Shown: piece after piece, positions 2,569 to 40,939 of the stretch
How the letters are laid out: every line of letters starts with the position of its first letter
Numbering within the stretch: position 1 is the first letter of the stretch
Origin: an uncultured Oligoflexia bacterium
Lineage (GTDB): Bacteria; Bdellovibrionota; Bacteriovoracia; Bacteriovoracales; Bacteriovoracaceae
Length of the DNA stretch: 64,000 nt
Direction: 5' to 3'
Assembly: GCA_913058265.1 (NCBI GenBank)
Contig: CAJXPQ010000004.1
Coordinates: forward strand, 1 to 64,000
Program-made: the position numbers and the translations under genes
The notes under the pieces: model-generated
What the model saw: only the letters and a program-made list of their open reading frames with translations
What the model was told of the DNA's origin: nothing
The model's database searches: none

Positions 2569-3870
2569 TTAGTACTTTAAGAACTCAGGGAAGAAGCTAA
2601 AAAGATCTAGCTTTCTATCCTGATCAAATTTTTTCTGGAAACTGATAAACTCTTTAAACCCTCTTTCTTCTTGGGTACTTTCATCATTTGGAATAATATA
2701 CTCATCCTCAGAATTCATAAAGTTTATTATTTGTTGGATATTGTCCGTTAAGTAGAGGTAGTGATCAGGTAGTATCGCTTCATACTTCGCCTTGATACGA
2801 ACTAGTTTTTCTGAGGCAATTTCTTTAAGCTCCGGTGGAAGATAAGTAGACTTAAAGTATGTTGGAACGTGTACATTAATTAGGTTTGGAGTGGGTACGA
2901 TAAACTTAAATTGCTCTAAGTATTCATATAACTCTTCCATTCGTAAAATATTTAGAATCTGAACAGTTGTACTAACCATACACTCGGTAATATTATATTC
3001 TTCGTGGTGTTGGTCTATGAAGTGAAAGTTTTCATGTATCTTACTCCACTTAGATGGATACCGAATATAATTATTTAGATCACCTACAGCATCAACACTG
3101 GCTAAAATCTTAACAGACTTAAAGCTTTTCCATAGTTCTAAAACTTTTTTAGGAAGAATTGTCATATTAGTATTGTAGGTAATAGTGATATTCTTAGCGC
3201 TGTCGGCTTCAATACAAGTTTGAAGTATCTTTGACATTTGAGGTACAAGTAAAGGTTCACCACCTGCAAAGTGAAGATGGGTAAGCGTTGCTGCTTTTTC
3301 CTCCACATCTTGAATCAGTCTTTCTGAGTCAATCCAGAAGTATTCTTCATATGATTCCATAGTCTCTTTATCAAAAGTTTCTCTTTGTGGCTTCATATCA
3401 TTCCACTCTTTAATCCAAAGCTTTGTGGATCTTGGATTACACATTCTACACTGTAGGTTACATAGATTGCCTAAGCGATAGTCAGCGGATGTAATGGGGG
3501 CAGTTGTTGAGCCGTCTTCATTAGTCGATTCTAGGAATGACACATTATCTTCACTATAATTATCTATTTCAATATTTCTTCTTGATATTCCGCCGTGATT
3601 TTCGGTAATTAGACATCTTTTACAAAGTGCTGGCCACTTTCCATCCATCATTTTTTTTCGAATATCTTTCATGAAATTGGTATTCATTACTTCTTTTGAA
3701 GTTACCAGGTCAGATATGAAGATCTTCTTACCTTGATCATCTCTTATATGATTATCAAACTCTTCGCTAGTACAGCAAACCTGATAACTTCCATCTTGGT
3801 TAATGAAATTATGTGTCCATGCCAGAGGGCAGTAGGACTTGGAGAATTTTTCTTTTTCTTCATCACTCAT
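2569..3870 (-). CDS. N-terminal-twitch radical SAM protein, type A (lone copy)
   Basis: A 433-residue radical SAM enzyme. An N-terminal cysteine region (C14, C32-C33, C83, C86) resembles a twitch/SPASM-type auxiliary cluster moved to the N-terminus. The radical SAM CxxxCxxC follows at C137, C141 and C144 (CNLQCRMC), then the SAM-binding GGEP motif (LHFAGGEPLL). It is a paralogue of the two type A genes downstream on the other strand (3956 and 7410) but is more diverged. Its ATG aligns exactly with an ATT codon in those copies. The family makes SAM-derived radicals to modify peptides, sugars or small molecules; the substrate here is unknown. No precursor peptide gene is visible nearby. It is divergent from the 3956 gene. 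Confidence 0.88.
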   Translation of the reverse strand: MSDEEKEKFSKSYCPLAWTHNFINQDGSYQVCCTSEEFDNHIRDDQGKKIFISDLVTSKEVMNTNFMKDIRKKMMDGKWPALCKRCLITENHGGISRRNIEIDNYSEDNVSFLESTNEDGSTTAPITSADYRLGNLCNLQCRMCNPRSTKLWIKEWNDMKPQRETFDKETMESYEEYFWIDSERLIQDVEEKAATLTHLHFAGGEPLLVPQMSKILQTCIEADSAKNITITYNTNMTILPKKVLELWKSFKSVKILASVDAVGDLNNYIRYPSKWSKIHENFHFIDQHHEEYNITECMVSTTVQILNILRMEELYEYLEQFKFIVPTPNLINVHVPTYFKSTYLPPELKEIASEKLVRIKAKYEAILPDHYLYLTDNIQQIINFMNSEDEYIIPNDESTQEERGFKEFISFQKKFDQDRKLDLFSFFPEFLKY

Positions 3871-3877
3871 TTGTTCT

Positions 3878-3901
3878 ATTATACGTGCTAAATAGATGAA
3901 A
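3878..3901 (+). promoter_or_regulatory. Conserved block upstream of type A radical SAM gene, copy 1
   Basis: A 24-base block beginning ATTATACGTGC lies 78 bases before the ATT start of the type A gene. It recurs at 7336-7359 with 22 of 24 bases identical, 74 bases before the second type A gene. Conservation outside coding sequence suggests a promoter or operator. Here it sits in the divergent region shared with the 2569-3870 gene. Confidence 0.5.
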
Positions 3902-3955
3902 AGTTAATAGAATTATAATGAAATAAATAATATTAAAATTTTGCAAGGTGTTACT

Positions 3956-5236
3956 ATTAGTAAGTTTGATAAAGAAAAATTTGGAAAAACTTTTTGTGTC
4001 CTCCCGTGGATACATAGCTTTATTAATCTGGGTGGTGAGCATCAGGTTTGCTGTACTGGTGAAGAATTTAGTAACTATATTCTTGATGAAAATAATAAGC
4101 GAATGAACGTTTTAGACAATAAGTCAGTCGACGATGTCATGAACTCTCAGTACATGAAAGATTTTCGCCTCAAGCTGTTAGCAGGAGAGTTTCCAAATGC
4201 TTGTACTCGCTGTGCAGTGACAGAGAAAAATGATGGTATATCTAGGCGCTGTATTGAGAATGATCAGTATTCTGAATTAGTAGAAGACTTGATTGAAGAA
4301 ACGAAAGAGGATGGAGAAATTGATCCGAAAATTATTCACTCCGACTACCGTCTAGGAAATATTTGTAATTTAAAGTGTAGAATGTGTAACCCTCGCGCTA
4401 CAAAAAAATGGATTAAAGATTACTCAATTTTATCTGAGGACGTCCTGCCACAAGAATTTCTGAGTAAGATTGATAGCTACAAAAAGAGCCCTTGGCTTGA
4501 TTCGGAAATTCTTACGGATGACTTTCGAAAAAAACTACCAACAATGACAAGACTTCATTTTGGTGGAGGAGAGCCATTATACAACCCAAAGATGCTGGAG
4601 ATGTTAAGAATAAGTATTGAGATGGGCCATGCACACAAATTAACCATTTCTTACAACACGAACTTAACAATTTTAAATAACGAAATATTAGATCTATGGA
4701 AACAGTTCAAATCTGTGAAACTCTTAATTAGTATTGATGGATTTGGTGAACTTAATGATTATATACGTCCTCCTTCCAAATGGGGGGTTATTGATAAGAA
4801 TCTAAAGTTCCTTGATACTCATCATGCAGATTATAATATTGAAGAAATTATTGTAAGCACGACTGTTCAGATAAATAACGTTTTACACCTCGATAAACTA
4901 TTCAACTATCTTTGTGACTTTAGCTTTGTCGAAAGATGTCCAAACTTAATCGCATTATATTTCCCTCAACAGCTGTCTCTGATAACACTACCTAAGCCAC
5001 TTACTATCTTGGCCAAATTTAAAATAGACTCCATTCTTGAGAAAATAAAAAAACAAGATGGAGTGCAAGAGTATATGATACAAAATCTAAGACAAATTAG
5101 AGAGTCCTTGAAAATTAGAGAATCTCAAGACCCTAAATTGTTTAAAAAATTTGTAAAGTTTTCAAGAGAGTATGATAATGCAAACGGCTTGGATCTTTTA
5201 TCAGTAAACCCTGAGTTTGAAAAATTTATCTCTTAA
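3956..5236 (+). CDS. N-terminal-twitch radical SAM protein, type A, module copy 1
   Basis: Radical SAM enzyme of about 426 residues with the same layout as the lone type A gene: N-terminal cysteines in FCVLPW, QVCCTGEEF and CTRC, then CNLKCRMC, then HFGGGEP. There is no ATG or GTG in frame near the N-terminus. A TTG at 3941 has no ribosome site. The ATT at 3956 has AAGGTG five bases upstream and aligns with the ATG of the 2569-3870 paralogue, so I place the start there; a TTG start at 3941 would add five residues. It overlaps the convergent glycosyltransferase-like gene by 11 bases. The substrate is unknown; a partnership with the type B protein is inferred from the duplicated pairing. Confidence 0.85.
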   Translation: MSKFDKEKFGKTFCVLPWIHSFINLGGEHQVCCTGEEFSNYILDENNKRMNVLDNKSVDDVMNSQYMKDFRLKLLAGEFPNACTRCAVTEKNDGISRRCIENDQYSELVEDLIEETKEDGEIDPKIIHSDYRLGNICNLKCRMCNPRATKKWIKDYSILSEDVLPQEFLSKIDSYKKSPWLDSEILTDDFRKKLPTMTRLHFGGGEPLYNPKMLEMLRISIEMGHAHKLTISYNTNLTILNNEILDLWKQFKSVKLLISIDGFGELNDYIRPPSKWGVIDKNLKFLDTHHADYNIEEIIVSTTVQINNVLHLDKLFNYLCDFSFVERCPNLIALYFPQQLSLITLPKPLTILAKFKIDSILEKIKKQDGVQEYMIQNLRQIRESLKIRESQDPKLFKKFVKFSREYDNANGLDLLSVNPEFEKFIS

Positions 5237-5909
5237 GACTGAAGTATAAGCAAACGCAAAATCTTCTAAGGTTTAGCTTCAAGAAAGATGAAGAATTATA
5301 TCCATTATCAACGTCAGTAAAAAATAAGTGTTTTCGTAACTTCTTCAGTACTAATAAATAATAGTTTTCTTTTAAATTTATTATGTCTTTTTTAAACGAT
5401 TCTGAAAGCTCCAATTCCTTAACTCTTACTATGTTTATAGAGTCGCCTTTTGTATCCTGTATAACGACTTTAAACCTTAGAGACATTAGTATTGAGCATA
5501 GTTTATCGAGTAGAGAACCGATTGAGAAATCTTTGGTTTTTCTCACAGAGGTGGTTAAGTTATAAGGTAGAAACTCTTTGGAGCGAATAATACTCAACAT
5601 CTCGTAGATATTATCTTCCCACCCTTCATTAAAAAAAATAATATAATCAAACTCTCTACTTTTTGCATATTCAAGAGCAGTGATAAATGATTCGGCTCTA
5701 TTTGTTTCGCGGTTAATATCGATATATTTAAAAGGTGTTTTGAGCTTTTCGTATTCAAGCTTTGCTACATGTGCTGTTTGATCATTGCTGTTTTCATTTA
5801 TAAATAAGTGCTCATCTATAAATGATACAAGAAATTTATGAATAATTCTAAATAATGGCTGGATACGAATGTCTTGATTGTGTAAGGGATAGACAGCTAA
5901 TATTTTCAT
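5226..5909 (-). CDS. GT-A-fold glycosyltransferase-like protein, probably degenerate
   Basis: A 227-residue protein. The start (MKILAVYPLHNQ), a family-2-like FINENSNDQT segment near residue 40 and an FDYIIFFNEGWED segment near residue 90 match the order of motifs in family-2 glycosyltransferases. The position where the metal- and nucleotide-binding DxD would stand reads FNEGWED, so the key motif is altered and catalysis is doubtful. It has no membrane segment. Its ATG overlaps the TGA of the upstream type B radical SAM gene (ATGA), so the two are translationally coupled. It is absent from the second module, so it was gained or lost after the duplication. Confidence 0.65.
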   Translation of the reverse strand: MKILAVYPLHNQDIRIQPLFRIIHKFLVSFIDEHLFINENSNDQTAHVAKLEYEKLKTPFKYIDINRETNRAESFITALEYAKSREFDYIIFFNEGWEDNIYEMLSIIRSKEFLPYNLTTSVRKTKDFSIGSLLDKLCSILMSLRFKVVIQDTKGDSINIVRVKELELSESFKKDIINLKENYYLLVLKKLRKHLFFTDVDNGYNSSSFLKLNLRRFCVCLYFSLKR

Positions 5910-7183
5910 ACTTCAATCACAGGGGCAAGCTCTGGGTAAGTTGTTTTAAAGTCCTCAGATCTAATCATATCAAGTTTATTCGTTTGTTTTTGAAAACTCT
6001 CGAGTAGGTGCGTCAGGTCTTCAGAGTTCATAAAGTCAATTTGTTGCTTTAAACTACTAAAGAAGTAGCCCCAATCTGTATTAGGATGACTCTCTTTAAG
6101 AAAACTCATATAAGTAATGAGGTTTCCTTCAGCTATTTTTTTATATTTACTTGGTAAAACTTGCGTTCGATACTCGGACGGGTCTTGAAGAGTATTAAAG
6201 ATAAATCCATACTCATTAATAATCTTGTTATTAAAAAAGTAGGAATGGATCTGTGGGATCCGGTGAATATTGAACAGCTGTATTGTACAATTGATTTGAT
6301 AGACTGTATTTGTTAGCTCTCTTTGAACCTTGTTCACGTTTTCTACAAATTTAGACCAATTGAGACCTGATCTAAAGTATTCACCTCTTGATTCTATATC
6401 ATCTAGACTAATACTTAGATTAATCTTTTTAAATTGCTTCCATAGGTGAAGAAGATCATACTTTTTAAATTTCAAAACACTCATATTGGTATTGTAATGT
6501 AGCTCAACGTCAGTTTTACCTTTTGCAATTAGTAGTTCGAGGCACTTATAATGTTCTTCCATCATTAGTGGTTCGCCACCAGCAAAATAAGCAATTTCTA
6601 AATGATCCAAGCTTTCTTCTATGTCTTGCCATAGAGCAGGGTTTGTATCCGTTATGTTGATTAGTTTCTTTTCCTCAGATTTAAAATCCCATAGTTTTTG
6701 GTGATCTTCATACCAATTTGTACTTAGGGCAGGGGAGCAACCTCTACATTTAAAGTTACAAATATTACTAAAGCGAATATCTAAGTAGCGCATTTTTAAG
6801 TTTGTGCTGCTACCATCTGCTTTTGTACTTTTTAGAACGTCAGAGTGATGCTTGAACCAACGATTCATTCTTTTTCTCATGGTATCAATACCGCTCTCTT
6901 CAAGCTCATAGCACTTTGAGCAACTGTATACCGGTCTATCTGAGAGCATCAGTTTTCTCATGGCATTGTACTTTTCGCTATTCCAACCTTCATTGATACT
7001 TTTATCTTTTACATTGGCGTAGGGATCGTTAAAGTCGGATACACAGCAGGGAAGTACATCACCATTTGGTAGGATATGACTGTGAACCCATGGAAGCATG
7101 CAGAAGTGCTTACTCTTGTCGATATCTTCGGGAGTATTGATTTGAGGTTTTTCCTTAAATAGACTCTTTAGTATGCCCAGCAA
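5906..7183 (-). CDS. N-terminal-twitch radical SAM protein, type B, module copy 1
   Basis: A 425-residue radical SAM enzyme. The N-terminal cysteine set is C28 (CMLPW), C46-C47 and C88/C91 (CSKC). The radical SAM cysteines are C142, C146 and C149 (CNFKCRGC), followed by FAGGEPLM. It is closely similar to the 8697-9974 gene and clearly distinct from type A. It starts with TTG behind CGGAGAT, a good ribosome site. A near-consensus sigma-70 promoter lies at 7208-7236. It heads a two-gene operon with the glycosyltransferase-like gene. Function and substrate are unknown; similar proteins are often found near surface polysaccharide genes, which agrees with its partner. Confidence 0.88.
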   Translation of the reverse strand: MLGILKSLFKEKPQINTPEDIDKSKHFCMLPWVHSHILPNGDVLPCCVSDFNDPYANVKDKSINEGWNSEKYNAMRKLMLSDRPVYSCSKCYELEESGIDTMRKRMNRWFKHHSDVLKSTKADGSSTNLKMRYLDIRFSNICNFKCRGCSPALSTNWYEDHQKLWDFKSEEKKLINITDTNPALWQDIEESLDHLEIAYFAGGEPLMMEEHYKCLELLIAKGKTDVELHYNTNMSVLKFKKYDLLHLWKQFKKINLSISLDDIESRGEYFRSGLNWSKFVENVNKVQRELTNTVYQINCTIQLFNIHRIPQIHSYFFNNKIINEYGFIFNTLQDPSEYRTQVLPSKYKKIAEGNLITYMSFLKESHPNTDWGYFFSSLKQQIDFMNSEDLTHLLESFQKQTNKLDMIRSEDFKTTYPELAPVIEV

Positions 7184-7207
7184 TTGATCTCCGTTTTCAT
7201 TTAGTTA

Positions 7208-7236
7208 ATTAAAGGGAATGTTAAGTGTAATGTCAA
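7208..7236 (-). promoter_or_regulatory. Sigma-70 promoter of type B gene, module copy 1
   Basis: On the minus strand, TTGACA (7231-7236), a 17-base spacer and TTTAAT (7208-7213). The -10 box ends 24 bases before the TTG start at 7183. The same promoter occurs at 9999-10027 within a 39-base block (7199-7237) that differs by one base between copies. Confidence 0.8.
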
Positions 7237-7259
7237 AGGTGATATGACCTTTGACCTTT
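7235..7259. promoter_or_regulatory. Operator-like palindrome next to the -35 box
   Basis: AAAGGT (7235-7240), six bases, then ACCTTT (7247-7252) forms a perfect inverted repeat touching the -35 box. A direct repeat of GACCTTT follows (7246-7252, 7253-7259). The second module lacks all of this although the promoter itself is conserved, so copy 1 may have its own regulator. Confidence 0.4.
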
Positions 7260-7335
7260 AGATCTATTATCAATACTGTTACTTATACTTAATTATACTA
7301 AGGCTGTGATCTCATCGGAAATATTTTATGAACGT

Positions 7336-7359
7336 ATTATACGTGCCATATAGATGAAA
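7336..7359 (+). promoter_or_regulatory. Conserved block upstream of type A radical SAM gene, copy 2
   Basis: The counterpart of 3878-3901 (22 of 24 bases identical). It lies 74 bases before the ATT start at 7410, in the 226-base divergent gap between module 1 type B and module 2 type A genes. Confidence 0.5.
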
Positions 7360-7409
7360 TATAATTAAAGTGATAGATATATTGGAATTTCTTTTTGTGG
7401 AGCGTTAAT

Positions 7410-8696
7410 ATTACTAGGTTTGATAAAGAAAAATTTGGAAAAGCTTTTTGTGTCCTCCCGTGGGTACATAGTTTTATTAATCTTGGCGGAGAGCATCAGG
7501 TTTGCTGTACAGGTGAAGAGTTCGATAATTATATTCTTGATGATAATAATAAGCGAATGAACGTTTTAGACAATAAGTCAGTCGACGATGTCATGAACTC
7601 TCAGTACATGAAAGATTTTCGTCTCAAGCTCTTAGCAGGAGAATTTCCAAATGCATGTACGCGTTGTGCTGTGACGGAAGAGTCTGAAGGGATCTCAAGA
7701 CGTTGTATTGAGAATGATGAATATTCAGGTTTAATCGATGATCTAGTTCAAGATACGAAGGATGATGGAGAGATTACTCCTAGAGTTGTTCACTCTGATT
7801 ATAGGCTTGGTAATATCTGTAATTTACAGTGTCGGATGTGTAACCCTGTGGCCACACGAAAGTGGATAAAAGATTATAGAATTTTATCTGATGATATTTT
7901 ACCCGAAGACTTTTTAGAAAACATTGATAACTACAAGACAAACTCTTGGCTTGACTCAAGCATTCTCTTGGATGATTTTCGAGATAAATTGCCGACAATG
8001 ACTCGACTTCATTTTGGTGGAGGAGAACCACTCTATAACCCAAAAATGCTAGAGATGTTACAAATTTGCATTGAAATGGGATATGCTCAACAAGTTACCA
8101 TTTCATATAATACAAATTTAACAATTCTTAATGATAAAATTCTGGATATTTGGAAGCAGTTTAAGTCTATTAAACTACTGGTTAGCATTGATGGGTTTGG
8201 AGAGCTAAATGATTATATCCGTTCTCCTTCAAAATGGAAGATTATTGATGAAAATTTAAAATATCTTGATGTGCATCACGCAGATTATAATATTGATGAA
8301 ATAATTGTGAGTACGACGGTTCAGATGAATAATATTTTACACCTTGATAAGTTATTTAATTACCTGGGAGATTTTAATTTCGTAGAGAAATGTCCAAATT
8401 TAATCGCACTCTACTTTCCGCAACAGTTATCTTTTTTTATCCTCCCAAAGCCTCTTGTTTATGTTGCAAAGCTTAAGATTGATTCGATTCTTGAAAGAAT
8501 TAAAACTCAAGAGGGAATTCAAGAGTTTATGATTCAAAATTTAAGGCAGATTAGAAATAGCTTAAACGTTCGTCAATCGGATGATGCTCACTTACTCCAA
8601 AAGTTTTTTAAATTCTCAAGAGAGTATGATGAAATACATGGACTTGATATGTTGAAGGTGAATCCAGAGTTTGAGAAATTTGTTTCACAAGAGTAA
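7410..8696 (+). CDS. N-terminal-twitch radical SAM protein, type A, module copy 2
   Basis: About 428 residues, highly similar to the 3956-5236 protein throughout, with the same FCVLPW, VCCTGEEF, CTRC, CNLQCRMC and HFGGGEP motifs. The TTG at 7395 is a possible start, but the ATT at 7410 has TGGAG seven bases upstream and aligns with the ATG of the lone type A gene, as in copy 1. 77 bases (7545-7621) are identical to 4091-4167 although flanking third positions have diverged, which suggests gene conversion. The TAA stop directly abuts the stop of the convergent type B gene with no base between. The substrate is unknown. Confidence 0.85.
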   Translation: MTRFDKEKFGKAFCVLPWVHSFINLGGEHQVCCTGEEFDNYILDDNNKRMNVLDNKSVDDVMNSQYMKDFRLKLLAGEFPNACTRCAVTEESEGISRRCIENDEYSGLIDDLVQDTKDDGEITPRVVHSDYRLGNICNLQCRMCNPVATRKWIKDYRILSDDILPEDFLENIDNYKTNSWLDSSILLDDFRDKLPTMTRLHFGGGEPLYNPKMLEMLQICIEMGYAQQVTISYNTNLTILNDKILDIWKQFKSIKLLVSIDGFGELNDYIRSPSKWKIIDENLKYLDVHHADYNIDEIIVSTTVQMNNILHLDKLFNYLGDFNFVEKCPNLIALYFPQQLSFFILPKPLVYVAKLKIDSILERIKTQEGIQEFMIQNLRQIRNSLNVRQSDDAHLLQKFFKFSREYDEIHGLDMLKVNPEFEKFVSQE

Positions 8697-9974
8697 TTAG
8701 CTGTCTAACATTTCCAAAAGTTCAGGATAAGTATCTTTAAAACTTTCAGATCTAATCCTATCTAATCTTTCTGTTTGAATTTGAAAGTTTTCAAGAAGAT
8801 GAGTTCGATCCTCCGAATTCATATAGTTAATTTGACTTATAAGTGTTCCAAAGAATTCACTCCAGTCAGCATCAGGATGAGTTTGTTTGAGTAGACCCAT
8901 ATAAGCTTTGAGCTTAACCTCTGCAGACTCTTTGAACCTTTTTGGTAAGACTTGAGTTCGGTATTCAGTGGGGTCTTGTAAAGTGTTAAAGATAAAACCA
9001 TACTCATCAATAATTTTTTTATTGTAAAAATAAAAATGAATTTGTGGAATACGGTGAATATTGAATATCTGTAATGTACAATTTATTTCGTAAACTGCAT
9101 TTGTTAACTCACTTTGTACCTTGTTTACGTTTTCGACAAACTTAGACCAGTTAAGCCCAGATCTAAAATATTCGCCTCTGGCTTCTATGTCATCAATACT
9201 TATACTGAGGTTAATTTTCTTAAACTGTTTCCATAAATGAAGGAGGTCATATTTCTTAAACTTTAAGACACTCATATTTGTGTTGTAGTGTAATTCAACG
9301 TCTGTTTTTCCTTTTACAATTAAAAGTTCAAGACACTGGTAATGCTCTTCCATCATAAGTGGCTCACCTCCAGCAAAGTAGGCAATTTCTATATGTTCTA
9401 AACTATCTTCAATCTCTTCCCATAGTGCAGGGTTTGCATCGGTTAGATTTATAAGCTTTTTATCTTCTGATTTAAAGTCCCAAAGTTTTTGGTGATCTTC
9501 ATACCAGCTTGAACTCAAAGCAGGGGAACAACCTCTACACTTAAAGTTACAAATATTACTGAAGCGTATATCAAGATAGCGCATCTCTAGATTTGTACTA
9601 CTACCATCTGGCTTGGTGTCTTTGAGAACGTTCACATGATGCTTAAACCAGCTATTCATCTGCTTTCTCATGGTATCAATACCGCTCTCTTCAAGCTCAT
9701 AGCACTTTGAGCAACTGTATACCGGTCTATCTGAAAGCATCAGCTTTCTTGTGGCATTGTATTTGTCGCTATTCCAGGCTTCCTTAATACTTTTATCGTT
9801 AACATTGGCATATGGGTCGTTGAAATCGGACACACAGCAAGGAAGTACGTCTCCATTTGGTAGAAGGTGAGTGTGAATCCAAGGAAGCATGCAGAAATGT
9901 TTGCTTCTCTCAATATCCTCGGAAGTATTAATTTTAGATTTTTCTCTAAATATATTCTTTAATCTTTTTAACAA
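8697..9974 (-). CDS. N-terminal-twitch radical SAM protein, type B, module copy 2
   Basis: A 425-residue paralogue of the 5906-7183 protein with the same cysteines (CMLPW, LPCC, CSKC, CNFKCRGC) and FAGGEPLM. It starts with TTG behind TGGAG and is driven by the duplicated promoter at 9999-10027. Bases 9664-9734 are identical to 6873-6943 of copy 1, while neighbouring bases differ. It has no glycosyltransferase-like gene after it: its stop codon touches the stop of the convergent type A gene. The copies may have diverged in substrate, or may simply raise dosage; neither can be decided from sequence. Confidence 0.88.
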   Translation of the reverse strand: MLKRLKNIFREKSKINTSEDIERSKHFCMLPWIHTHLLPNGDVLPCCVSDFNDPYANVNDKSIKEAWNSDKYNATRKLMLSDRPVYSCSKCYELEESGIDTMRKQMNSWFKHHVNVLKDTKPDGSSTNLEMRYLDIRFSNICNFKCRGCSPALSSSWYEDHQKLWDFKSEDKKLINLTDANPALWEEIEDSLEHIEIAYFAGGEPLMMEEHYQCLELLIVKGKTDVELHYNTNMSVLKFKKYDLLHLWKQFKKINLSISIDDIEARGEYFRSGLNWSKFVENVNKVQSELTNAVYEINCTLQIFNIHRIPQIHFYFYNKKIIDEYGFIFNTLQDPTEYRTQVLPKRFKESAEVKLKAYMGLLKQTHPDADWSEFFGTLISQINYMNSEDRTHLLENFQIQTERLDRIRSESFKDTYPELLEMLDS

Positions 9975-9998
9975 CTAAACTCCAGTTCTATTTAGTTA

Positions 9999-10027
9999 AT
10001 TAAAGAGAATGTTAAGTGTAATGTCAA
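9999..10027 (-). promoter_or_regulatory. Sigma-70 promoter of type B gene, module copy 2
   Basis: TTGACA (10022-10027), a 17-base spacer and TTTAAT (9999-10004) on the minus strand, 24 bases before the TTG start at 9974. It is part of the 39-base block 9990-10028 shared with 7199-7237. The palindrome seen upstream of copy 1 is missing. Confidence 0.8.
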
Positions 10028-10034
10028 AATACAG

Positions 10035-25393: not shown

Positions 25394-26155
25394 GTGGCTA
25401 TTCGTAAAAAATTAAAAGCGTCAACGGTACCTATTATATTGGTGACGGATGATCTTGCAGATAAGATGTTCAAAATCTTTGAAACGTATTATGAAAAAAC
25501 GAATTATGAACACTTCATTAGAGATCTTAGAAGTAAAGATAAGGTGATTCTCTTAAAAGATACAGCTGGCGATATTAGAGGCTTCTCTACTATTGTAGAG
25601 TTTAACTTAATAATCAATGGCCGTGAACAGCATATTGTTTATTCAGGGGACACGATTATTGTTTCTGATTTCAGGGGGACCTCTGCTCTGACAATGGAGT
25701 TCTTAAAAAATATATTAAAGGCAAAAATAAAGAATCTTAACAAGCCCGTTTGGTGGTTACTTGTATCAAAAGGATACAAAACCTATTTACTACTCGCAAA
25801 TAACTTTATTGAGTACTTCCCTAGGTACGACAAAGAAACGATAGTAGAAGTAAAAAGTATATTAAAGGACTCAACAGATATTCTTTTTCCAGGTTGTTAC
25901 TGCGAGGATACAGGGATTGTTGGTACTGAAAATAATGAACATGAAATTTTAAAAAGTACTGTCGCCCCAATATCCGAAGAGCTAATTAAAAAATATCCTC
26001 GAATTAAATTTTTTAATGATATTAATCCAAATTGGGGACAGGGCGAGGAATTGGCGTGTATTGGTCGTGTTGACCTTATGCTTGGTATTGTCCATCCATT
26101 TAAGATTTTAAAGAAAGTATTTTTAAAGAAAAAATCAAATAAGAAAATTAAATGA
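25394..26155 (+). CDS. GNAT-like acyltransferase, first gene of GH3 operon
   Basis: A 253-residue cytoplasmic protein. Strands and spacing such as LLKDTAGDIRGFSTIVEF, YSGDTIIVSDFRGTSAL and WWLLVSKGYKTYLLLANNF resemble an N-acyltransferase (GNAT) fold with an acyl-donor site, but no standard Q/RxxGxG motif is clear, so the call is tentative. It starts with GTG. Its stop overlaps the ATG of the GH3-type gene by four bases, so the two are coupled. With a ligase and two oxygenases downstream, it may acylate an amine intermediate. Confidence 0.6.
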   Translation: MAIRKKLKASTVPIILVTDDLADKMFKIFETYYEKTNYEHFIRDLRSKDKVILLKDTAGDIRGFSTIVEFNLIINGREQHIVYSGDTIIVSDFRGTSALTMEFLKNILKAKIKNLNKPVWWLLVSKGYKTYLLLANNFIEYFPRYDKETIVEVKSILKDSTDILFPGCYCEDTGIVGTENNEHEILKSTVAPISEELIKKYPRIKFFNDINPNWGQGEELACIGRVDLMLGIVHPFKILKKVFLKKKSNKKIK

Positions 26156-27615
26156 TATACAACGTACTTATTCATAGATGCCTAAAGGTAGCGAGTGCAT
26201 TTCAGTATTTTCAATTTAAAAAGCTACTTATAAATCCAAGAAAGGCCCAGGAGATTGTACTTAATACTTACCTTGCTAGGTTAGAAGTTCAAAATTATTC
26301 TGAGTTTTGTAAAAGGTATCCGATTACTAGGTATCAAGATATTGAGAGGTCAATTCTACAGCAAATGGAACAGGGGGATCGCTCATTTATTGATGATGTT
26401 ATTCGCTTTGAGCCTACCAGTGGATCTGTTGGTGCTATCAAGTGGATTCCTTATACGACACAGTTCTGTTCAGAACTGGATAAGGCCTCATCACCATGGC
26501 TTTATGATCTCTATCGTAAATATCCATTAATTGGAAATGGGAAACATTATTGGTCGCTTTCCTGGCTACCTAACGATCTTAGAGAGAAGGCTTCAAATAA
26601 TGAGACAGAGATATTTCCCTGGTATAAAAAAATTGTCTTAAGTCATCTGATGGCGATTAACGATGAAGTCGTTAAAAAAGAAACTTCTCAGCAAGCAATG
26701 GAGGAGACTCTTTATTATTTATGTAAAGAAGACATTTCTCTTTTTTCTTTTTGGAGTCCAACTCTCATTTTAAGTTTACTCGAAAACTTATTTACGAATA
26801 AAGAAGTGATTATTAACAGGCTTCAGACTTCAAGCCCCGATAAAGCCGCTATCCTATCTAAGCATAAACATCTTACTAAAGACTTCACCAAAGAAATGTG
26901 GCCAAATCTCAATCTCATTAGTGCTTGGGGAACATCTACATCTAGACAATGGGCCGACGTAGTCACGACCTTATTTCCACACGCAAACTTTCAAGGAAAG
27001 GGTCTTTGGGCCACAGAGGGGGTCATCACAATTCCTTTTGAAGGTAAATATCCTCTCGCGATTAATTCTCACTTTTATGAGTTTCAATGTTTAAAAACCT
27101 CGCAAGTCCTTTGTTCATGGGAACTCAAAGTAGGTCAGATCGTTAAGCCTATCCTCACAACTGGGAGCGGTCTAACTCGATATATCTTGGATGATAAAAT
27201 TAAAGTTGAGTCTTTTATGGGACAAACACCATGCTTTGAATTCTTAGGACGAGATAGAGTGTCCGATTTTGTAGGAGAGAAGCTTGATTTTGATTTATTA
27301 GAAAAACTGAGTTCAAAAATAGCCTCAAAATTAAAAGCTAAATTTGTCACGGTTTTGTTTCATAATTCAGGTATGAAGTACTATGAATTACTTTTAGAGT
27401 CTAAGAATACTATTGCAATTGATAGTAATGACTTTGAAGAAGACCTTATGAAGGTATACCACTATCGTCTGGCAAGGGAACTTGAGCAATTGGGTGAAGC
27501 AAAGATTAAAATGGTCTCTTCCGGCGTAGATTATTATTATGAGAAATGTCATAATGAGATTAAGGGTAATATTAAATTCGAAATTGTTATGCCCGTTTAT
27601 GAGGACAAAAAGTGA
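26152..27615 (+). CDS. GH3-family acyl-adenylating ligase
   Basis: A 487-residue member of the GH3 branch of adenylate-forming enzymes, which activate a carboxylate with ATP and couple it to an amino acid or amine. FEPTSGSVGAIKWIPYT is the phosphate-binding loop. ISAWGTSTSRQWAD and GLWATEG (the YxATE-like motif) line the ATP and acyl sites. The C-terminal subdomain includes FLGRDRVSDFVGEKL, the hinge/DR motif. Length is somewhat shorter than plant GH3 (about 600 aa) and usual for bacterial ones. It is coupled to the genes on both sides (ATGA and GTGA overlaps). Confidence 0.85.
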   Translation: MIYNVLIHRCLKVASAFQYFQFKKLLINPRKAQEIVLNTYLARLEVQNYSEFCKRYPITRYQDIERSILQQMEQGDRSFIDDVIRFEPTSGSVGAIKWIPYTTQFCSELDKASSPWLYDLYRKYPLIGNGKHYWSLSWLPNDLREKASNNETEIFPWYKKIVLSHLMAINDEVVKKETSQQAMEETLYYLCKEDISLFSFWSPTLILSLLENLFTNKEVIINRLQTSSPDKAAILSKHKHLTKDFTKEMWPNLNLISAWGTSTSRQWADVVTTLFPHANFQGKGLWATEGVITIPFEGKYPLAINSHFYEFQCLKTSQVLCSWELKVGQIVKPILTTGSGLTRYILDDKIKVESFMGQTPCFEFLGRDRVSDFVGEKLDFDLLEKLSSKIASKLKAKFVTVLFHNSGMKYYELLLESKNTIAIDSNDFEEDLMKVYHYRLARELEQLGEAKIKMVSSGVDYYYEKCHNEIKGNIKFEIVMPVYEDKK

Positions 27616-28658
27616 GTAATTTAAGAGAAAGAGATGGGAAGCTAAGAGAGAATTGGTATATAGTCTGCCTCGAATCAGAATTGAAAGCTAAGCCAATTCA
27701 GCGAATGATTTACGATAAGAAAGTTGTCATTTTTAGAGGTAATAAAGGTATTGCTGTTCTTGATGATACTTGTCTGCACCGTAAAGCGACCTTATCAAAA
27801 GGGAGAGTTGAAAAAGGGCAGTTGATTTGTCCTTACCATTCTTGGACTTATAATACTGATGGTGAGGTTGCTCATGTACCAAGTGAAGGAGAGAACCAAA
27901 ATATAGGGGCCCGCTGCCTAAAGTCTTACGCAGTACACTTAAAAGATGGTGCCGTTTGGATTTGGATGGGGGATGAGAAGGCATCTGATACTTCAAAAAT
28001 ATGGAATTTTCCTCACTATGCTGAACGAGGTTGGTCCCACTACTTTATGGTTACAGACTTTGACAATGAAGTGACAAATTTAGTCGAGAACTTTGTGGAT
28101 GTTCCTCACACCGTTTCTGTTCATAAGGGATGGTTTAGAAATAAGTCCCTTCAAAAAGTTCCCTTTAATACAGCGACAAGTAATGGTGAGGTGTTAGTTA
28201 CTTATGATTCACCTGATGACAATATCGGTGTTTTAATGAGACCGCTTTTAAACCCCAAAAACGAGAGTATGCTTCATACTGATAAGTTCATTTATCCTAA
28301 TATAACCAGAGTCGACTATAGCTTTGGACAAAACTACAAATATGTTATTAATAGCGAGTGTACACCTGTTAGTACAATGCGCAGTAGAGTTTATACCTAT
28401 ATTGCCTACAAGATCCCGGTGATTGGTAGCTTTTTTAAGCCACTTATCCAATACTATACTCGTCAGGTAATTAATCAGGATGTATGGATAATGAAGGTTC
28501 AGTCTGAAAACCTAGATACTGTAAATGGGAACACCTTTCAATCAACCCCTGCTGATGAGCCTCATATACATATAGAGCGTTTAAGAAGACAGGGAGTTAC
28601 AACTCCAGCTAAGGTTTATGAAGTCGAAATGAATTCTGATCACACGATGTGGATTTAA
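27612..28658 (+). CDS. Rieske non-haem iron oxygenase
   Basis: A 348-residue oxygenase alpha-type subunit. The Rieske [2Fe-2S] ligands are C54, H56, C73 and H76 (CLHRKA, CPYHSW). The mononuclear iron site is canonical: N160-x2-D163-x2-H166-x4-H171. Such enzymes hydroxylate, demethylate or desaturate aromatic or lipid substrates with electrons from a separate reductase, and no reductase gene is adjacent. It starts with GTG overlapping the GH3 stop (GTGA). The substrate is unknown; context suggests tailoring of the GH3 product. Confidence 0.88.
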   Translation: MSNLRERDGKLRENWYIVCLESELKAKPIQRMIYDKKVVIFRGNKGIAVLDDTCLHRKATLSKGRVEKGQLICPYHSWTYNTDGEVAHVPSEGENQNIGARCLKSYAVHLKDGAVWIWMGDEKASDTSKIWNFPHYAERGWSHYFMVTDFDNEVTNLVENFVDVPHTVSVHKGWFRNKSLQKVPFNTATSNGEVLVTYDSPDDNIGVLMRPLLNPKNESMLHTDKFIYPNITRVDYSFGQNYKYVINSECTPVSTMRSRVYTYIAYKIPVIGSFFKPLIQYYTRQVINQDVWIMKVQSENLDTVNGNTFQSTPADEPHIHIERLRRQGVTTPAKVYEVEMNSDHTMWI

Positions 28659-28737
28659 AGACTTATGTTTATTACCTACTGTTAATCTAACATGGCGTTT
28701 GCTACAATATCATTAGAGATTTCTAACGTAGGACGTA

Positions 28738-29628
28738 ATGAGCGGAACCGTTTATAAGCAATATTTATCGGATAAAACAGACTTTCGCATGAAGTGGAAG
28801 AGTTATATTAACTCCGATAAATCTAAGCTGGGTCCCAACGATTTCAAGGATGAACTTACTCCTTTTAGCGGACAAGAAATTTATAGTTCTTTCTCTGATG
28901 AAAAAAAACTAAAACTTTTCTATGAGTATACAAAATTTATAGCAGAATCTATTATTGTTCTTGAGCAAGTGTTGATGTTTGCTTTTTGGCACTATAAAAA
29001 GAATCACGATTTCTCAGAACCTATTAATGACTCTATAGACAAGTTTTGTAACGAAGAGCTCTATCATTCTGAAGGGTACCGGTCTTTTTTAAAATCACAA
29101 GATGTTTTCTCATGGCCTGAAGAAAAGCTTTTCTTAAAAAATAAATGGGTCGTTCTTTGTATTACTTGGGTCATAAAGCATGCACCTTTAGGGATAACAT
29201 TACCCGGGGCAAAACTTGAGGCTTTCTCAGTTTCTTATTATCGCTATTTAAAGAAGATCTATGGAGATGAGGAAAATTCGTGGGTGGAGCTAAACCGCTT
29301 ACACCACGAAGATGAGATCTTTCATATTCCACTCGAGTTTGATATTTATAATTCAACTCTAGACCGTGCAGGGCACGTAAAGTCCATTGTCTCAACATTC
29401 GTATTCTTTATTTTTTTACAAGTCACCCTAATCAGCTCTTGTACTCAATATATTAAACGCTGCTTTCCAGAGAAAAACTCTATCCAAAAGTTTTTTCTTA
29501 TTATAAAAATGGCAAAATGGGCCGTGAGAGAGATGCCGGCCTATAAAGATGGAATCAAGCTAACGCAATCATTTTTCAAGAAAAAGAATCCAAAATATAA
29601 ATCAATATTTAAATTTTTAAGAATGTAA
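28738..29628 (+). CDS. AurF-like diiron oxygenase
   Basis: A 296-residue helical protein with a complete ferritin-like diiron ligand set: E76, E107 and H110 (EELYH), E161 (KLEAFS), and H189, E193 and H196 (HHEDEIFH). Order and spacing match the p-aminobenzoate N-oxygenase AurF (E, ExxH, E, HxxxExxH), which turns an aryl amine into a nitro group. N-oxygenation is therefore likely but a C-hydroxylase is possible. A hydrophobic stretch near 217-235 may touch the membrane. It follows the Rieske gene by 79 bases on the same strand, with TAGGA before the ATG. Confidence 0.78.
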   Translation: MSGTVYKQYLSDKTDFRMKWKSYINSDKSKLGPNDFKDELTPFSGQEIYSSFSDEKKLKLFYEYTKFIAESIIVLEQVLMFAFWHYKKNHDFSEPINDSIDKFCNEELYHSEGYRSFLKSQDVFSWPEEKLFLKNKWVVLCITWVIKHAPLGITLPGAKLEAFSVSYYRYLKKIYGDEENSWVELNRLHHEDEIFHIPLEFDIYNSTLDRAGHVKSIVSTFVFFIFLQVTLISSCTQYIKRCFPEKNSIQKFFLIIKMAKWAVREMPAYKDGIKLTQSFFKKKNPKYKSIFKFLRM

Positions 29629-38170: not shown

Positions 38171-40939
38171 ATGAATACGACGACAATTAAACCTTCACTT
38201 TATGATAGGATTGATCCCAAATTAACTGTTACTTTATTGCTAATCTCTTACAATATTCTGGGAATAGTATACCTTGGATTCAACCGTACATTTGAACAAG
38301 TCTTCTTAACATGTGCTGCGGCGGTTTTAGTTCAGTTTTTACTTGAAGGATTATTTAATAAGAGGTGGGTGTTTAGTCAGAGTGCACTCATAACTGGCTT
38401 AGGTCTTGCTATTCTTGTGAACTATGGTCACAGCTATCTACTTCTACTGGTTCCTGTCTTTTTAGGAATAGGCTCTAAATTTCTTTTTACTTTTAACGGT
38501 AAACATATTTTTAATCCTGGTTTGATGGGGGTAGTTTTATCACTTCTGATCACCAATGAACTTATATCACCTGCGCCAGCGTATCAATGGAACCAGGGGG
38601 GCTTGATGGCCTTTATGATAGCTCTTCCTGCTTTATTTTTGGTTATGCCAAAAATTAATAGGCATTGGCTAGTTATTGCATGGCTGGGTACTTTTACTGC
38701 TCAGATCATTCTTAGATCAATACTGATTCAGCACTACTTACCATGGTCGACTTTATTCTTTGGGACGTTGACCTCTCCTTCATTCTTCTTATTTACTTTT
38801 TTTATGATTACAGACCCTGGAACGACTCCTGGTACAAAAAAAGAGCAGATCAAGGTCGGTGTTATCTTAGGTGTTTTAGATTTATTCTTTCACCTTGTAT
38901 CCAGTTATCATACGTTTTTTTATGCCGCTTTGGTTTTAGGAAGTTACAAGCTATTTAAGGTACACACTCAGGAAATGATTAAAGAGAAATCTTTCTTTCC
39001 ATATATTTCCCAATACTTCTTTAAGTCGGGACATTATCTAAAAACCTTGGTTCTTTTTGCAATCATGGGTAGCTCGGTTTGGATTTATAAAAATGTTTTA
39101 CAAGATAATGTGGGCATCACAAAAGCAGGGTTTCGTTTTGAATCAGTAAGTTCATTGAAAACACAGTTTGACTTCGGTCGGGGGGATATTGATGCCAGTG
39201 CAGACCCTAGGGTCCAACACATGGCGAAGTGGTTATTGTCTATTACCGATGGAGTTGCTGTTGTAGACTTTGATAATGATGGGCTTCAGGATATCTTTTT
39301 TGCAAATCCTCATAAAGCAGCTAAAGATAGAAATGCCCTTTTCAGAAACTTAGGGGAATTTAAGTTTGAAAGAGTTAAGAGTGAAGAACTTAGTTTTTAT
39401 GGAAGCAGTTATAAAGACTATGGTGCTGCTAATAACGCAATCTTTGTTGACTTTGATAATGATGGGGATAAAGACCTGTATCTTATGTATGCTTTTGGAG
39501 CAAAAGGGACAAGTCGATTATTTAAAAATTTACTGAGTGAAACGGGGACTCTTGTTTTTAAGAATATTACTGATGAGTCAGGCCTTAGACTCTATTCTAA
39601 CTCAGCAACAGCAAACTTTTTTGATTATAATAAAGATGGAAAACTTGATCTCTTTCTAGGGAATACAATTGCTACTCACTTAAAAGGTTATGATAAACCG
39701 ACAGAGCTAGACTATTTTGAACTTCCTGCACCAGAGTATGAAGGTGATCGAAGAATGCTTCATTTTATGCATGAGTCATGGCATATGGCGAACAACGGTG
39801 GAACGAATTATCTTTTTGAAAATTTAGGGGATACTTTTAAGCTTCTCGATTCTAAAGTCATGGGGTTTCCAGAGACACGGTGGTCTATGGCGATTGCAAC
39901 AGCAGATTTTAATCAAGATGGCTGGACTGACCTTTATGTCGCAAATGACTTTGGACCTGATGATCTCTATTACAATAGAGAAGGAAAATCTTTTGAAAAT
40001 ATCAAGGGCGAATACTTTGGTGAAATCGGTAAGGATACCTATAAGGGGATGAATGCAACGATATTGGACTTTGATCGTAACGGATATATGGACGTTTACA
40101 TATCTAATGTACATCATGCTCTTCAAGCAGAGGGATCACTATTGTGGAGCTTTCATAAAAACAAAGATAAGGATAGTGATCCTTACATTAAGGAAGTTGC
40201 AAGCTTTACAGGTGCACTTAATGAAAACCGTTTTGGTTGGGGAGCAGGCTCTGGAGACTTTAATAACGACGGGTGGATTGATCTTGCTCAGGCCAACGGA
40301 ATGGTTGATGATATCTGGGATAAAGAATCTGATGACTGTCCAGACTATTGGTATGTTAATGAAAAGCTGGCCAGGTCACCACCAGAGATACACACCTTTA
40401 TAGATAATTGGGGTGATATCCGAGGGAAGTGTATATATGGTAAAGAGAAGAATCGCTTATACCTAAATCGAGGAACATCTAAGAAGCCTCAATTTGTTGA
40501 TATTGCCAATCAGATTGGTATGACTCAAGAGGCGAATTGGAGAGGGATGGCGATTGCTGACTTCAATAACGATGGAAAACTTGATTTAGTTGCAAGTTCT
40601 CTACGAAGAAATCCTTTAGTCTTTAAAAACCTTGGGGGAGATAGTGATAAGAATAACTGGATTGGATTCGATCTAGTATCCAATAGTCCTAAGTGTAATA
40701 AGGATGCTGTTGGTTCAAGAGTAGAGCTTACATTTTTGGATAGTAAGGGTGTGGAGCAACGGCAAACAACAGAGCGTGTGGTTGCTAATGGCTTCTCTGC
40801 CCAGTCGGATGGACGCATACACTTTGGTTTAGGTGAAAAAGGAACTCCCTTAAAACTTAAAATCACTTGGTGTGGCGGTGATGTACTTGTATATAAAGAC
40901 TTAGAGGTAAATGCATACCAGAAGATGACCTATGAGTAA
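38171..40939 (+). CDS. NQR2/RnfD-like membrane domain fused to FG-GAP repeats and ASPIC/UnbV domain
   Basis: A 922-residue fusion. Residues 20-310 form about nine helices with NQR2/RnfD features (GKHIFNPGLMGVV, MITDPGTTPGTK). Residues 330-830 carry seven calcium-binding DxDxDG-type FG-GAP motifs (DFDNDGLQDIFFAN, DFDNDGDKDLYL, DYNKDGKLDLFLGN, DFNQDGWTDLYVAN, DFDRNGYMDVYISN, DFNNDGWIDLAQAN, DFNNDGKLDLVAS), a likely extracytoplasmic beta-propeller. The C-terminal 90 residues match ASPIC/UnbV (VGSRVELTF to LKITWCGGD). RnfD-type proteins bind flavin for electron transfer; here the domain may serve as redox or membrane anchor. It overlaps the next gene by eight bases. Confidence 0.85.
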   Translation: MNTTTIKPSLYDRIDPKLTVTLLLISYNILGIVYLGFNRTFEQVFLTCAAAVLVQFLLEGLFNKRWVFSQSALITGLGLAILVNYGHSYLLLLVPVFLGIGSKFLFTFNGKHIFNPGLMGVVLSLLITNELISPAPAYQWNQGGLMAFMIALPALFLVMPKINRHWLVIAWLGTFTAQIILRSILIQHYLPWSTLFFGTLTSPSFFLFTFFMITDPGTTPGTKKEQIKVGVILGVLDLFFHLVSSYHTFFYAALVLGSYKLFKVHTQEMIKEKSFFPYISQYFFKSGHYLKTLVLFAIMGSSVWIYKNVLQDNVGITKAGFRFESVSSLKTQFDFGRGDIDASADPRVQHMAKWLLSITDGVAVVDFDNDGLQDIFFANPHKAAKDRNALFRNLGEFKFERVKSEELSFYGSSYKDYGAANNAIFVDFDNDGDKDLYLMYAFGAKGTSRLFKNLLSETGTLVFKNITDESGLRLYSNSATANFFDYNKDGKLDLFLGNTIATHLKGYDKPTELDYFELPAPEYEGDRRMLHFMHESWHMANNGGTNYLFENLGDTFKLLDSKVMGFPETRWSMAIATADFNQDGWTDLYVANDFGPDDLYYNREGKSFENIKGEYFGEIGKDTYKGMNATILDFDRNGYMDVYISNVHHALQAEGSLLWSFHKNKDKDSDPYIKEVASFTGALNENRFGWGAGSGDFNNDGWIDLAQANGMVDDIWDKESDDCPDYWYVNEKLARSPPEIHTFIDNWGDIRGKCIYGKEKNRLYLNRGTSKKPQFVDIANQIGMTQEANWRGMAIADFNNDGKLDLVASSLRRNPLVFKNLGGDSDKNNWIGFDLVSNSPKCNKDAVGSRVELTFLDSKGVEQRQTTERVVANGFSAQSDGRIHFGLGEKGTPLKLKITWCGGDVLVYKDLEVNAYQKMTYE

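Follow-up and report, generated by a model that had tools for sequence, protein, structure and literature searches.

A duplicated two-type array of N-terminal-twitch radical SAM genes in a Bacteriovoracaceae genome, with a possible role in surface-glycan sugar chemistry

Introduction

Of the SPASM/twitch radical SAM enzymes that have been characterised, most modify peptides or proteins. Other radical SAM enzymes, BlsE and DesII among them, act on sugars. The N-terminal-twitch (N_Twi) enzymes are collected in the NCBIfam family NF033640 (N_Twi_rSAM, 'twitch domain-containing radical SAM protein'; curated cut-off 170 bits), whose members are abundant in marine bacteria and phages; the literature that we searched held no functional study of them. 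Accumulation of radical SAM genes has been described in viruses, where a T4-like genome was found to carry 12 of them, N_Twi or other (PMC5332604).

Here, we describe an array of five N_Twi genes in an uncultured marine member of the Bacteriovoracaceae, a relative of predatory bacteria. The window, that is, the whole stretch of DNA analysed, is 64,000 nucleotides long. The array is not categorically new, as it represents a named family in a conserved two-type combination.

Results

Five N-terminal-twitch enzymes of two types

The gene order in the window is A'(−) A1(+) GT(−) B1(−) A2(+) B2(−) PhoX(−) (Table 1). An earlier sequence-only reading had proposed five radical SAM enzymes of two types, A and B, and both proposals held. 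The five proteins matched NF033640 over their full length (353, 336, 400, 340 and 400 bits) and all contain the radical SAM core, PF04055. Judged by these matches, they appear to be ordinary members of NF033640, with nothing to set them apart from that family. Types A and B formed separate clades in the tree and are only 27–28% identical, while A' is 44% identical to the A proteins. A SPASM domain (PF13186) was observed at the N-terminus of B (residues 28–92, E about 5e-12) and was borderline in the A types (21.0–22.6 bits against a cut-off of 21.5). The motifs reported earlier were present in 5/5 proteins, together with a single Cys, in the order single Cys, CC, CxxC, CxxxCxxC and GGEP. The cysteines of C, CC, CxxC and CxxxCxxC were invariant when 14 proteins of type A and 11 of type B, drawn from several genera, were aligned.

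Table 1. Genes and elements of the array, with related loci elsewhere (window coordinates unless a locus is named)
Feature	Position	Strand	Basis or remark
A', type-A N-terminal-twitch radical SAM enzyme, single copy	2569–3870	−	CxxxCxxC at residue 137, CC at 32, CxxC at 83, GGEP at 203
A1 upstream element, core TATTATACGTGCYAWATAGATGA	3877–3917	+	Repeated upstream of A2
A1, type-A N-terminal-twitch radical SAM enzyme	3941–5236	+	ORF, NF033640 match and motifs
GT, 227-aa GtrB-like (GT2-type) glycosyltransferase-like ORF	5226–5909	−	phrog_841 match; conserved in congener
B1, type-B N-terminal-twitch radical SAM enzyme	5906–7183	−	ORF, NF033640, Pfam and motifs
B1 conserved upstream element, TTTGACATTACACTTAACATTCCCTTTAATTAACTAAAT...	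7189–7237	−	Alignment with B2 upstream
A2 upstream element, copy of 3877–3917	7335–7375	+	Local alignment
A2, type-A N-terminal-twitch radical SAM enzyme	7395–8696	+	79% identical to A1
B2, type-B N-terminal-twitch radical SAM enzyme	8697–9974	−	80% identical to B1; AlphaFold model pLDDT 94
B2 conserved upstream element	9980–10028	−	Alignment with B1 upstream
NTase-like gene	L147:11391–12269; L148:7553–8467; L149:6510–7343; L150:7511–8431; L091:237–1112		Beside A'/B pair or B
Viral N_Twi arrays	L283–L362, e.g. L287:805–9676, L302:702–7179		Marine and other phages; neighbouring genes for NodU-like carbamoyltransferase and putative glycosyltransferases

A sixth gene, GT, lies between A1 and B1 and had been overlooked in the earlier inventory. 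It overlaps A1 by 11 bp and B1 by 4 bp. Its N-terminal 132 residues gave a weak 28-bit match to phrog_841 (GtrB-like; E=3.2e-6), and no Pfam or NCBIfam family matched it. Counterparts of about 41–42% identity occur in the same place in the same-genus locus L067 (8283–8987) and also in L210. A clear DxD motif is absent from both GT and the L067 counterpart, the alignment reading NEGWED at that place in GT. The AlphaFold model of GT was poor (pLDDT 41) and was built from two sequences.

The array is flanked by an NhaC-like antiporter gene and by PhoX, the latter confirmed by Pfam. Elsewhere in the window, we observed one ORF (38171–40939, +) in which FG-GAP repeats and an UnbV/ASPIC domain are combined with an NQR2/RnfD-type membrane domain. 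A cluster at 25394–29628 (+) has a GH3-family protein (26152–27615) followed by an ORF that looks Rieske-like by eye and by another lacking a Pfam match. A 24-bp tandem repeat, TCTGTTGAGTCGTCTGCTACTACT, of about four copies stands at the contig start (1–95).

Upstream elements and intergenic gaps

Upstream sequence was copied along with the genes. The regions before B1 and B2 are near-identical over about 50 bp (alignment score 76, shuffle maximum 32), and a shorter block of about 23 bp is common to those before A1 and A2 (local alignment score 43, shuffle maximum 30). These paired blocks fit the private promoters that had been proposed for each gene. A sigma-70 consensus scan of the region gave 32 matches against 36 in shuffles, no excess, and no promoter of its own was visible for GT. 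The 21-bp core of the B element was found nowhere in the genome except before B1 and B2 (≤3 mismatches), and a regulon under this element was rejected. An inverted repeat, TCAAAGGT-CATATC-ACCTTTGA, lies directly upstream of the promoter-like element of B1 (window 7184–7260) and is missing before B2.

We sought a precursor peptide gene in the 70-, 211- and 60-bp gaps (341 bp in total) and, in agreement with the earlier reading, found no candidate conserved ORF; the only ORFs in the largest gap are of 22 and 43 aa. No RRE/PqqD gene was found on the contig of the window, the two PqqD matches of the genome being on contigs C5 and C9, and Pfam gave no PqqD match within the five radical SAM proteins.

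An old duplication under purifying selection

The same-genus relative G002 has the order D(−) E(+) A'(−) A(+) GT(−) B(−) PhoX(−), with one A-GT-B, and A' holds the same position beside PhoX/NhaC/PPX genes in L154 and L067. The ancestral order is thus shown to be A'-A-GT-B. Because the congener keeps a single A'-A-GT-B at the same PhoX-adjoining site, A-GT-B was duplicated in the window lineage, to which the duplication is specific. The simplest history is a single tandem duplication of A-GT-B followed by loss of GT from copy 2. Hence, of the duplication of a whole module claimed earlier, the doubling of A and B stands, while A' is single and GT is present in copy 1 only. As A' is a type-A gene lacking a B partner, the two types are not 'always' paired either.

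The dN values were 0.135 (A1/A2) and 0.116 (B1/B2), with dS saturated (1.8 and 3.0), which indicates that the duplication is old and that both copies are under strong purifying selection. Residues invariant in other genomes were kept about equally by the copies: 68 and 68 of 70 for A, 80 and 81 of 84 for B. A difference in substrate or expression between the two array copies is probable.

Pairing of A and B is conserved, their orientation is not

We surveyed 129 genomes of the family, with the orthologue line set post hoc at about 40% identity or more. A scan of genome contigs with single proteins found no relative, whereas the alignment-based scan did. Each type was present in 10 genomes: eight had both, two only A, two only B and 117 neither. 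Co-occurrence in 8/12 genomes having either type (Fisher p=1.3e-9) is strong, though not a clean probability, as kinship and the post hoc identity line are uncorrected. The two types do not, therefore, usually occur alone. The B-only genomes, G120 and G104, are 85% and 59% complete and have the B gene on short contigs. The A gene of A-only G124 is at a contig edge; in the other A-only genome, G055 (96% complete), B seems truly absent. A lone A was observed at L155, and the window genome itself has a lone B3 on contig C5 (L056), next to a gene that looks like a heptosyltransferase by eye and lacks a Pfam match.

The convergent arrangement proposed earlier is not conserved, whereas the pairing is. 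B and A' are immediate divergent neighbours in four genomes of two other genera (G041, G042, G053 and G134; g15 and g5), A and B are co-directional at L068 and co-directional neighbours in G001, and they are apart in G057.

Partner and neighbour genes

A conserved protein of 277–306 aa with the motif FNxFxSDIDxT is encoded in the four divergent-pair genomes and beside B in G120. It belongs to no Pfam family and, going by the motif alone, is likely to be nucleotidyltransferase (NTase)-like. All strong matches to its profile (E<1e-40) were in type-B genomes. In the window genus, GT stands in the place of this gene.

Across the family, the neighbours of N_Twi genes included a second radical SAM family (18 genomes), DegT aminotransferase (8) and GT4 glycosyltransferase (6), as well as the NTase-like gene, an ABC transporter ATPase, a carbamoyltransferase and an amidinotransferase (5 each). 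Pfam/NCBIfam confirmed the names DegT, GT4, ABC ATPase, radical SAM and NodU homologue; some others were read from sequence. The best solved match of the amidinotransferase was inosamine-phosphate amidinotransferase (1bwd, E=3.7e-49; StrB-like). At L148:850–3651 (−), 4.8 kb from an A'/B pair, a fusion of a carbamoyltransferase, with both its N and its C domain, to a SPASM/radical SAM protein is encoded. In the window genome, a large glycan-type island on contig C6 (L054, L055) includes two 650-aa radical SAM proteins and further N_Twi genes, of types D and E, whose divergent D/E pair is kept in two congeners (L067, L069). A PMT_2-like transferase is also encoded in this island, as is a carbamoyltransferase, NodU-like by its sequence (L054).

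A gene for a small Peptidase_S74-domain protein adjoining a PqqD-like gene was observed at L148:4910–5680, and an S74-domain gene at L155:7414–7872 lies near an A gene. The S74/PqqD-like genes may form a separate peptide system.

Heterotypic arrays in viruses

At least 589 relatives of type B were found in IMG/VR viral contigs, the viral homologues being 35–40% identical to the type-B proteins of the window. Among phage records, there were only weak matches, in Vibrio phages K566 and K567 and in one short marine virus record. We examined 88 viral loci (≤13 kb), which have 2–8 N_Twi genes apiece. The viral proteins fall into a few clades (FastTree, weak deep support), and the most frequent array, seen in 21 loci, draws exactly one member from each of five clades. 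Of 80 loci selected for their B member, 64 also had an A-superclade member; the two nearly always shared a strand, and about half of the pairs were <300 bp apart. Heterotypic arrays of N_Twi genes are thus widespread, most of all in marine phages. This bears on the earlier statement that no pathway with this A/B module has been described: as a unit, A/B (with GT or the NTase-like gene) is indeed undescribed in the literature searched; the family, however, is already named, and multi-type arrays are general in it, mostly with further types.

Predicted structure of B2

The AlphaFold model of B2 was of high confidence (pLDDT 94, pTM 0.91). A sequence search of solved structures with A2 and B2 gave no match. 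By structure, the solved proteins matched the model over the radical SAM core alone (TM normalised to query 0.39 or less), with the best matches tied at Z 11–12: anSME (12.3), BlsE (12.0), DesII (11.3) and also SuiB; BtrN was not among the matches listed. The whole fold matched predicted phage proteins (TM to query up to 0.87). The substrate class cannot be read from the predicted fold.

Discussion

Our preferred reading, tentative and slightly more apt to be wrong than right in its complete form, is that the array represents, in reduced and duplicated form, a widespread multi-enzyme N-terminal-twitch system, in which A and B would take successive radical steps on a surface-glycan sugar. From the conserved cysteines and the established chemistry of radical SAM enzymes, each enzyme is expected to hold two clusters: CxxxCxxC would bind the [4Fe-4S] cluster that cleaves SAM, and the N-terminal C...CC...CxxC a single auxiliary cluster. 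Genomic context suggests the rest. One sugar or cyclitol, destined for a surface glycan, would be the substrate of both types, A and B taking it through different radical steps in succession, e.g. dehydrogenation, deoxygenation or epimerisation. Transfer of the sugar would fall to a partner, GT in the window and the nucleotidyltransferase-like protein in the second clade. We infer joint action of A and B on a single target.

This glycan reading is supported by NF033640 membership together with the cluster cysteines that are invariant in both types across genera, by the co-occurrence of A and B and their adjacency in other genera, and by the partner genes, GtrB-like in the window and congener and NTase-like beside B in five genomes. 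The C6 island, the family-wide neighbours and the L148 carbamoyltransferase fusion also point to glycans, and the B2 core resembles BlsE and DesII, among others. Against it, the window locus has a single glycan-type gene, which is weakly matched, DxD-degenerate and missing from copy 2, and its NhaC-like antiporter and PhoX flanks give no pointer to a glycan. The B2 core fits the peptide-modifying anSME and SuiB equally well, and we know of no N_Twi family member with a known substrate. The lone A and lone B of some genomes count against a joint pathway. A bolder version is doubtful: that A and B depend on each other as obligate partners, forming an undescribed radical pathway of two steps to an unusual surface sugar, and that the same heterotypic set (up to five fixed types, one each) serves very many marine phages in remodelling their own or host glycans.

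The array could instead be a local paralogue expansion, N_Twi genes multiplying and travelling in glycan and phage islands with A and B having separate roles and no joint target. The diverse 2–8-member arrays of phages and bacteria, the lone B3 and the lone A, and the varying A/B order and orientation would fit. We nevertheless consider it unlikely, since A/B co-occurrence is far above chance (kinship uncorrected), A' and B adjoin in two other genera, both types were retained in both copies under purifying selection, and the A-superclade accompanies B in most of the viral loci.

Somewhat less probable is that A and B modify a peptide or protein, either RiPP-like or as maturases of a remote protein. 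The SPASM-type auxiliary domain, the predicted core fold nearest to anSME and CteB/SuiB-type sactipeptide enzymes, and the PqqD-like and S74-domain genes near A' or A in L148 and L155 argue for this, against which stand the gaps with no precursor, the contig with no RRE/PqqD gene, an auxiliary domain that is N-terminal, unlike that of peptide maturases, and the glycan genes that neighbour the family. A viperin-like role in phage defence or predator–prey interaction, in which a nucleotide or small molecule would be made or modified, is very improbable. For it, there are weak viperin-family matches, viperin among the structural matches and the nucleotidyltransferase-like partner of the second clade. 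Against it, the viperin-family scores (NF038283) are 25–32 bits against a curated cut-off of 180, no defence genes were recognised nearby (neighbours read, no defence library used), and phages themselves carry N_Twi genes in numbers, which is unusual for a defence gene.

If the glycan reading is true, relatives of predatory bacteria and phages would have in common a radical-chemistry route to surface sugars. No smaller natural unit of the system was observed than the compact A'/B pair of the Bacteriovoracaceae with its one partner gene, which makes this pair the easiest place to seek the substrate.

Compared with known systems, the window enzymes have the radical SAM core in common with the sugar-acting BlsE, DesII, AprD4 and BtrN, the first two being among the best structural matches; they differ in an N-terminal auxiliary domain, and the match is core-only at 9–16% identity. 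GT resembles the GtrB-like bactoprenol glucosyltransferases of phrog_841 in its N-terminal part, and differs from them in being short, faintly matched and degenerate at the DxD position. As in the marine T4-like viruses with multi-copy radical SAM genes, several such genes stand together in the window; the viral arrays usually run in a single orientation and comprise as many as five deep types, whereas the window has only A and B, in cellular subclades. Since the viral arrays are heterotypic, arrays of this kind are a habit of the N_Twi family, of which the window is a reduced cellular case.
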